Below, piece after piece: positions 22,237-23,800 of a DNA stretch of 64,000 nt. The translations under genes were made by a program, and so were the position numbers. Within the stretch, counting starts at the first letter, position 1. Each line of letters starts with the position of its first letter. Source of the stretch: Sphingomicrobium aestuariivivum (GTDB taxonomy: Bacteria > Pseudomonadota > Alphaproteobacteria > Sphingomonadales > Sphingomonadaceae); NCBI RefSeq assembly GCF_024721585.1, contig NZ_CP102629.1, forward strand, positions 868,001 to 932,000, read 5' to 3'. The notes beneath the pieces are model-generated. The model ran no database searches, was not told where the DNA came from, and saw only the letters and a program-made list of their open reading frames with translations.

Positions 22237-22989
22237 TTAGCCTTCCTTGCTTTCGTCGGCCGCGACCGCCGCATCGGCAGTCTGGTCGGCGCCAGCTTCA
22301 TTGTTCGACTTCGCGTCGCTCTTGAGCGCGGCCGGATAGGGCGCGTCCGAGTGGCGCGGAAGCTTGACCGCGTCCGAGACCATCAGCCAGCCACCCTTCG
22401 AGCCGGGCACCGAGCCCTTGACGAAGAGGAGACCGCGCTCGGCGTCGGTGCGGACGATTTCGAGATTCTGCTGCGTGCGGGTGCGGGCACCCATGTGACC
22501 GGCCATCTTCTTGTTCTTGAAGACGCGGCCCGGATCCTGGCGGTTACCCGTCGAACCGTGCGCACGGTGGCTGATCGACACACCGTGCGAGGCGCGCATA
22601 CCACCGAAGCCCCAGCGCTTCATGGCGCCGGCGAAGCCCTTACCCTGGGTCACGCCCTGGATGTCGACCTTCTGGCCCGGAACGAAATGCTCGGCCGAGA
22701 TCTCGGCGCCGATGTCGAGGAGCGCGTCCTCGTCGACGCGGAATTCCGCGACCTGCATCTTGGGTTCGACTTCGGCCTTGCCGAAAGCTTCGCGCTGCGG
22801 CTTGTTGACGTTCTTCGCCTTCGCCTTGCCGGCGCCGAGCGCCACAGCGGTGTAACCGTCTTTGTCTTTTTCGCGACGACCGACGACCTGGACGCCGTCG
22901 AGGTGAAGGACGGTAACCGGCACGTGCCGACCGTCCGCCTCGAACAGGCGGGTCATCCCCATCTTCTTCGCGATCACGCCAGTGCGCAT
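22237..22989 (-). CDS. rplC: 50S ribosomal protein L3
   Basis: A 250-residue L3 that starts '[20 protein letters not shown]'. ATG 22989 is chosen over the in-frame ATG 22995 because the GGGAG site then has a nine-base spacing instead of three. '[63 protein letters not shown]' is the family core. The C-terminus carries an Ala/Asp-rich tail of about 30 residues beyond the E. coli protein. Confidence 0.97.
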
Positions 22990-23276
22990 GATCATATGCT
23001 CCCATCAGAGGCCCGCGCCGGTTCATTCCGACGAGGGCGTGCGACCCGTTGCTATGTGCGAAACCCCCGCTTGGGTCGTTCCTGCCGATGGGGCAGGAGG
23101 CGGGGGACGCATGACCACGGCATTGCCGTGCGGTATCCCTAGTGCCTCGAAGGCGCCGGCGGACCGGCACCTTGGAAACTCAGCAGCTTGGAGGGCTGCA
23201 AATCCTTGTTTTTGCTGGCTCCCGGCAACAACCGGGCGACTCACAAACCCTTCCCTCGGGAAGGCCTGCGCGCCCT
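22990..23276 (-). ncRNA. Structured 287-nt intergenic RNA between rpsJ and rplC
   Basis: No convincing ORF fills this gap, which is far larger than those between its neighbours. Read in transcript order it holds five stem-loops. They are CCTTCCC/GGGAAGG (23249-23264), CCCGG-N6-CCGGG (23221-23236) and GGTGCCGG-TCCG-CCGGCGCC with a UNCG-type loop (23152-23171). Then come CACGGC-AAT-GCCGTG (23116-23130) and a compound stem CCCCCGC/GCGGGGG enclosing CCTGCC/GGCAGG (23064-23106). The rplC ribosome site follows. The position and density of helices suggest a cis-regulatory leader for rplC and downstream genes. This is inference. Confidence 0.5.
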
Positions 23277-23588
23277 TTAGGCCAGTTTGATCTCGACGTC
23301 CACCCCTGCGGCGAGGTCGAGCTTCATCAGCGCGTCGACCGTCTGCGGGGTCGGCTGCACGATGTCGAGGAGGCGCTTGTAGGTGCGGACCTCGAACTGC
23401 TCGCGCGACTTCTTGTCGATGTGCGGACCGCGGTTCACGGTGAACTTCTCGATGCGCGTCGGCAGCGGGATAGGACCGCGAATAAGAGCGCCCGTGCGGC
23501 GCGCCGTGTCGGCGATGTCACCAGTCGCCTGATCGAGGACCCTGTGGTCGAAGGCCTTCAGACGAATACGAATATTCTGCGTTTCCAT
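23277..23588 (-). CDS. rpsJ: 30S ribosomal protein S10
   Basis: A 103-residue S10 beginning '[20 protein letters not shown]' with '[46 protein letters not shown]'. ATG 23588 is preferred to the in-frame GTG two codons up. S10 is also the NusE antitermination factor. Its mRNA is separated from tuf by a terminator-like hairpin and from rplC by a structured gap. Confidence 0.97.
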
Positions 23589-23757
23589 ATCCACTCACCG
23601 ATGCGAAAGAGCCAGGCCCTGGTGGCAGCCGCCAGTCGGGCCAAACATTGTTCAAACCAAAAAATCGAAGACCCTGTTCTTCTAGTTGCGTTTTATAAAG
23701 CAACCAAACTGAACGGGGCCTGAAACTTGTACTCGAGCTCCGGAAAAGACCGGGGCT

Positions 23758-23800
23758 CAAAACAATCGCGGGGGTCGATGACGAATCACCGACCCCCGCG
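23758..23800 (-). terminator. Rho-independent terminator after tuf
   Basis: CGCGGGGGTCG and CGACCCCCGCG form an 11-bp perfect stem, extended by a G-T pair and TGA/TCA to a TTCG loop. ATTGTTTT follows in the transcript. It lies 17 bp behind the tuf stop. The U tract is interrupted, so some read-through into rpsJ is possible. Confidence 0.75.

Follow-up and report, generated by a model that had tools for sequence, protein, structure and literature searches.

In Escherichia coli, the leader of the S10 operon lies upstream of rpsJ, binds ribosomal protein L4 and acts by attenuation as well as by translational control. According to the available text of the 2020 survey by Eckert and Weinberg, a candidate ribosomal protein leader (r-leader) for L2 precedes rplB in Alphaproteobacteria, and an L4 r-leader candidate, rated borderline by its authors, is located upstream of rplC-rplD in Archaeoglobi (PMC7247131). 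The same text gives the intrinsic terminator as a usual expression platform of r-leaders, and a known r-leader ligand in the operon as the best published predictor of the ligand of a new leader (PMC7247131). In Peptostreptococcaceae, an rpsJ motif came from a survey of 50 genomes (PMC11109978). For the boxA element, the NusB/S10 site with the gammaproteobacterial consensus GYTCTTTAANA, regulation has been shown at suhB, and sites have been predicted ahead of rpsJ in three genera of Gammaproteobacteria (PMC5725501). Here, we analysed the gap between rpsJ and rplC in a window of 64,000 nucleotides, the whole stretch of DNA under study, from Sphingomicrobium aestuariivivum, and in its relatives. 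The 3' half of this gap is, judging from sequence comparison, quite probably an intercistronic r-leader for rplC and the genes that follow it, and not for rpsJ.

The S10 cluster of the window is on the minus strand, as are all features described below. The gene rpsJ (S10/NusE; 23277-23588) is upstream of the putative leader and rplC (L3; 22237-22989, with its ATG start at 22989) is the first gene downstream, followed closely by rplD, rplW, rplB, rpsS, rplV, rpsC, rplP, rpmC and rpsQ. From rplC to rpsQ, the ORF coordinates place neighbouring genes so that they overlap or are at most about 15 nt apart (6 nt between rplW and rplB); the end of rpsJ and the start of rplC are separated by 287 nt. 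These coordinates agree with the sequence-only reading, an earlier inspection of the bare sequence, which had pointed out both the long gap and the tight spacing of the other genes, and had seen no convincing ORF in the gap. We likewise found no conserved ORF or encoded protein there. A coding reading is ruled out because base pairs covary and because the gap, which measures 154-385 nt among 104 distinct sequences of Sphingomonadaceae, and the core described below, with 124-201 nt across relatives, change in length in steps that are not multiples of three.

Folded as a single sequence, the gap has an energy of -133.2 kcal/mol with z = -2.17, and 5 of 200 shuffled sequences folded equally well. 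On the opposite strand z is -1.82, and an RNA from that strand was rejected, as its fold is no better and it would have no meaning for rplC. The gap had been called helix-dense, with at least five GC-rich stem-loops. A conserved fold is indeed present in the 3' half, but the folding exceeds chance only mildly by this z score, and therefore it is the comparative evidence, and not the stem-loops alone, that is convincing. The 5' half (23142-23276), with its GC-rich stem-loops, is kept only in the two nearest relatives; the nearest named one, Sphingomicrobium astaxanthinifaciens, has an L3 with 97% identity. The UCCG-capped stem (about 23150-23173), which had been taken as part of the leader, is in this 5' half and is not kept beyond close relatives, whereas the 3' half is.

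The conserved core of the structured RNA (23004-23141) was matched by our covariance model with 97.9 bits in its own genome, and the runner-up in that whole genome scored 16.2 bits, so no second copy was found there. Sequences compared side by side share one order of elements from 5' to 3'. GGGAUACC is followed by a hairpin, GCGUCCCC and a stem that carries a hairpin; next come the first strand of the pseudoknot, the closing side of the stem and the second strand of the pseudoknot, and then a hairpin with GCCUCUG at its end, the Shine-Dalgarno (SD) sequence and the start of rplC. Domain P0 (23104-23139) is formed by covarying pairs between GGGA (23136-23139) and UCCC (23104-23107), which become GAGA:UCUC and GGAA:UUCC in relatives, and it encloses the invariant GAUACC and a variable hairpin. 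The P1x/P1 stem (23057-23111) pairs UGCG (23108-23111) with CGCA (23057-23060) and CCGC (23100-23103) with GCGG (23067-23070), and P1x crosses P0. Inside P1 there is the P2 hairpin (23081-23097; CCUGC/GCAGG), which is variable in sequence and covaries. The pseudoknot (23043-23077) connects GACCC (23073-23077) to GGGUC (23043-23047), and relatives have AGCCC/GGGCU, GGCCC/GGGCC or AACCC/GGGUU. The 3' hairpin, PS (23006-23041), has the form CA-N-GC...GC-CUC-UG with a conserved 1x3 internal loop, and is followed by GGGAG (22999-23003), the SD sequence of rplC, which was compared in the window and in relatives. The unpaired GAUACC and GCGU of the core are invariant in an alignment of 43 sequences. 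A conserved RNA in the gap had thus been rightly suspected from the sequence alone, but only the 3' half is conserved, and the pseudoknot that it contains, probably one of two, had been missed. An Rfam search, which had also been proposed, assigned no family to the gap: with Rfam 15 at the gathering score, only a tRNA was found in the whole window, and relaxed thresholds gave weak unrelated matches and nothing credible for the gap.

The 43-sequence alignment was made with MAFFT without structural information, and it supports P0 and its inner hairpin, P1, P1x, P2, the five-pair pseudoknot and the 3' hairpin. In this alignment, 90.0% of the base-pair cells are paired, against 35-54% when the partners were slid, and both partners have changed in 236 cells, compared with 94 after shuffling. 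RNAalifold independently recovered P0, both strands of the pseudoknot and the 3' hairpin; it also placed CA:UG pairs around the conserved internal loop, in which one base is opposite CUC. The covariance model, built without the pseudoknot and without P1x, matched all 100 loci searched, in each case within the rpsJ-rplC gap, and was used to make a 100-sequence alignment. Across these Sphingomonadaceae loci, 91.9% of the cells of the named base pairs are paired (30-53% when slid by 1-3 columns), and both-side changes number 630, against 233 in shuffles. The five-pair pseudoknot is formed in 99.8% of its cells, in A-U, G-C and G-U forms with repeated A-U/G-C exchange. On the tree, its two variable pairs have 13+9 and 8+15 changes (left+right) with 92/93 and 93/93 rows paired, and P0 pair 4-80, paired in 84/84 rows, has 3 concerted changes. 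Support for P1x is weaker than for P0, its outermost pair being formed in 72 of 91 rows. Since P0 and P1x cross and each has its own covariation, the two helices may coexist as a second pseudoknot, which we consider probable, or may be alternative states of the RNA. The covariance test that the sequence-only reading had put forward thus gave many compensatory changes, in both alignments and on the tree; the gap is conserved in Sphingomonadaceae and encodes no protein.

The 104 loci, which comprise the named relatives with both genes readable and the loci of a genus search, all have the long gap. In a nucleotide search, the rplC-proximal part is kept genus-wide at about 74%, and the 5' part is common only to the nearest relatives. 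Of 163 sampled Sphingomonadaceae genomes, 153 have a single match to the covariance model, and loci fetched from strong matches in the order and family searches likewise have a long rpsJ-rplC gap. No match was among those listed for 83 sampled genomes of other families of Sphingomonadales, and credible matches among 289 class-wide genomes were found only in Sphingomonadaceae; two class-level matches (G560 and G567, E = 0.017 and 0.041) were discarded as weak and not beside rpsJ-rplC. Outgroup gaps are from -1 to 40 nt long (20 loci) and contain neither GCCUCUG nor the core. Conservation of the gap across relatives, which the sequence-only reading had called for, therefore holds across Sphingomonadaceae.

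Ten family genomes have no model match; no rplC was obtained from two of them, and gap lengths in the remaining eight are 37-99 nt. In these eight, GCCUCUG is kept before the SD sequence and the pseudoknot core is absent, and in seven of the eight GCCUCUG is the closing strand of a hairpin. The 3' hairpin PS hence occurs without the rest of the leader in family members that branch early. In a quick tree of the rplC and rpsJ proteins, the short-gap members branch outside a clade (SH-aLRT 99) to which all loci with a full leader belong, and two state changes are enough to explain the leader distribution. A stepwise origin is suggested, in which the pseudoknot core was added to an already existing SD-proximal hairpin, and the 3' hairpin beside the SD sequence appears to be the oldest part of the leader. 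The gaps of three early-branching members (L153, L154 and L155) share a further small stem, CAAATACGCGGAGCGA(C/A)TTTG, to which the word ACGCGGAGCGA in the gap of L157 is related, and the 99-nt gap of L156 has the hairpin-CUCUG-AGGA module in two tandem copies. A GCCUCUG-SD module before another gene, for a small exported-like protein, was dismissed as a chance match with no clear matching hairpin.

An intrinsic terminator is found directly after the pseudoknot in about 20 of the 104 loci, 53-71 nt before rplC; the tree implies about ten switches between its presence and absence, with doubt over a few of the calls. The copy in the window has no terminator. In terminator-bearing loci, for example L097 and L104, the sequence after the T-run is conserved as TTTTTCGTTGG(A/C)(T/C)ACGC. 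The idea of anti-terminator pairing between a pseudoknot strand and the post-terminator sequence, considered on visual inspection of Sphingobium-type loci, was abandoned as other loci do not keep this pairing. Predicted sequestration of the SD sequence by the conserved CCUC is modest, above 0.5 in 27 of 104 loci and below 0.2 in 54. Promoter-like sites in the 5' half of the gap are weak (5 of 104 loci against 1.7 expected), and none was found in the window; in L086, L099 and L110, TGGACA-N17-TAAAGG, which resembles a promoter, is located in the 5' half of the gap, ahead of the leader. In a search for rRNA mimicry, the rRNA operon was masked over most of its stretch, and its readable remainder contained none of GATACCGC, CTGCGTCC and GCCTCTG.

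The r-leader reading is favoured because of the position, the single copy, the fixed partnership with rplC, the deep covariation, the invariant unpaired bases and the lineage-specific terminators. The structure is conserved and covarying, it lies consistently upstream of r-protein genes, and we place it among r-leaders by structure and position, with an r-protein as a candidate ligand. We infer that the gap and rplC are in one mRNA and that a protein binds it, as well as the direction of regulation and the ligand. The nascent mRNA would fold into the P0 hairpin domain, the long stem and the pseudoknot, and then into the CUC-internal-loop hairpin adjoining the SD sequence of rplC. An r-protein from the downstream genes, when in excess over free rRNA, would bind this fold and translation of rplC would be blocked; where a lineage has a terminator behind the pseudoknot, the bound leader would end transcription instead. 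Through coupling, the whole rplC-rplD-rplW-rplB block and the genes beyond would be lowered and rpsJ would be spared. L4 is our tentative choice of ligand, because it regulates the S10 operon of E. coli and because a prior ligand is the best predictor named in the available survey text. L3, the next candidate, is unlikely, another r-protein of the operon is unlikely to the same degree, and a ligand that is not an r-protein is slightly less likely still.

A riboswitch or other sensor, in which the double-pseudoknot core would bind a small molecule, an ion or an alarmone and so tune ribosome synthesis, is improbable. The compact pseudoknotted core and the invariant unpaired GAUACC and GCGU would suit it, and surveys of r-leaders concede that not every cis-regulator of r-protein genes need bind an r-protein (PMC7247131). 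The element, however, is always before rplC and never before metabolic genes, it matches no Rfam riboswitch, and restriction to one family in front of an r-protein operon is typical of r-leaders. We consider it even less probable that the fold serves processing, stability or insulation, by protecting the rplC mRNA once the transcript has been cut behind rpsJ or by helping translation to re-initiate, with no feedback. Such a role would be in keeping with the intercistronic location and with the apparent age of the SD-adjoining hairpin, but fits poorly with a pseudoknot maintained through many compensatory changes, with invariant unpaired bases and with repeated gain or loss of terminators.

The terminator within the gap in some lineages and the few promoter-like sites in the 5' half could also point to a separate trans-acting small RNA, derived from the rpsJ 3'UTR or transcribed from its own promoter. 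This is very unlikely, as the conservation extends across the hairpin next to the SD sequence, and a terminator is absent from most loci and from the window, which also has no promoter-like site. Chance GC-rich folding with no function, for which the single-sequence z of merely -2.2 might speak, has a negligible probability and is refuted by the covariation and the family-wide conservation.

With an r-leader before rplC as the preferred reading, the region upstream of rpsJ has its own conserved site. The boxA-like GCUCUUUCGCAUCGGU (23597-23612), just upstream of rpsJ, is conserved 21-40 nt before the rpsJ start. GCUCUUU is present at most 45 nt before this start in 95 of 101 family loci, usually as GGCUCUUUCGCAUCGGU, and is absent upstream of rpsJ in 20 outgroup loci. 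Its likeness to the gammaproteobacterial consensus suggests autoregulation of S10/NusE through Nus factors. A strong terminator-like hairpin is located between tuf and rpsJ (23767-23800), and rpsJ may therefore begin its own transcript. In some Sphingomonadaceae (L012, L027, L053, L058, L063, L071, L078, L110 and others), tuf and rpsJ are several hundred to 1900 nt apart, and therefore something is inserted there. If both the boxA-like site and the rplC leader act, S10 would be controlled separately from the rest of the operon, as the sequence-only reading had guessed. Control of the S10 operon in Sphingomonadaceae could then be split, with rpsJ under the boxA-like site near its ribosome-binding site, and L3, L4 and the rest under a pseudoknot leader that was built stepwise, from the CUCUG hairpin to the core, with terminators that come and go and intermediates visible in living genomes; this wider picture is speculative, and we hold it to be possible but rather doubtful.

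A literature search found no published description of this rplC leader, and in the available text of the 2020 survey none of the 20 new r-leaders is before rplC in Sphingomonadaceae (PMC7247131). The leader appears to be a family-wide regulatory RNA, not described before, in an operon that is among the most conserved in bacteria. It most likely allows a large set of r-proteins to be throttled separately from S10, and makes it testable whether S10, which is also the transcription factor NusE, has escaped the feedback control of its operon. Early-branching relatives seem to keep intermediates, so that it can be asked how an r-leader arises from nothing. As with the S10 leader of E. coli, the RNA is in the same operon ahead of the L3-L4 genes, and in some Sphingomonadaceae a terminator directly follows the structured region. 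Unlike that leader, it sits after rpsJ and not upstream of it, leaving rpsJ outside, it is pseudoknotted, it is confined to Sphingomonadaceae in our searches and it has no Rfam match. The Alphaproteobacteria L2 candidate, as given in the available text, is also an r-leader candidate within the S10 operon of Alphaproteobacteria, and is set apart by its position before rplB, whereas our RNA precedes rplC (PMC7247131). The Archaeoglobi L4 candidate, compared by its description in that text only, shares the position before rplC-rplD but belongs to an archaeal lineage (PMC7247131). The Peptostreptococcaceae rpsJ motif is likewise an RNA control of the S10 operon, but acts upstream of rpsJ (PMC11109978). 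For the gammaproteobacterial rpsJ boxA, again an RNA control of this operon, the counterpart in Sphingomonadaceae is not the rplC leader but the boxA-like site upstream of rpsJ (PMC5725501).
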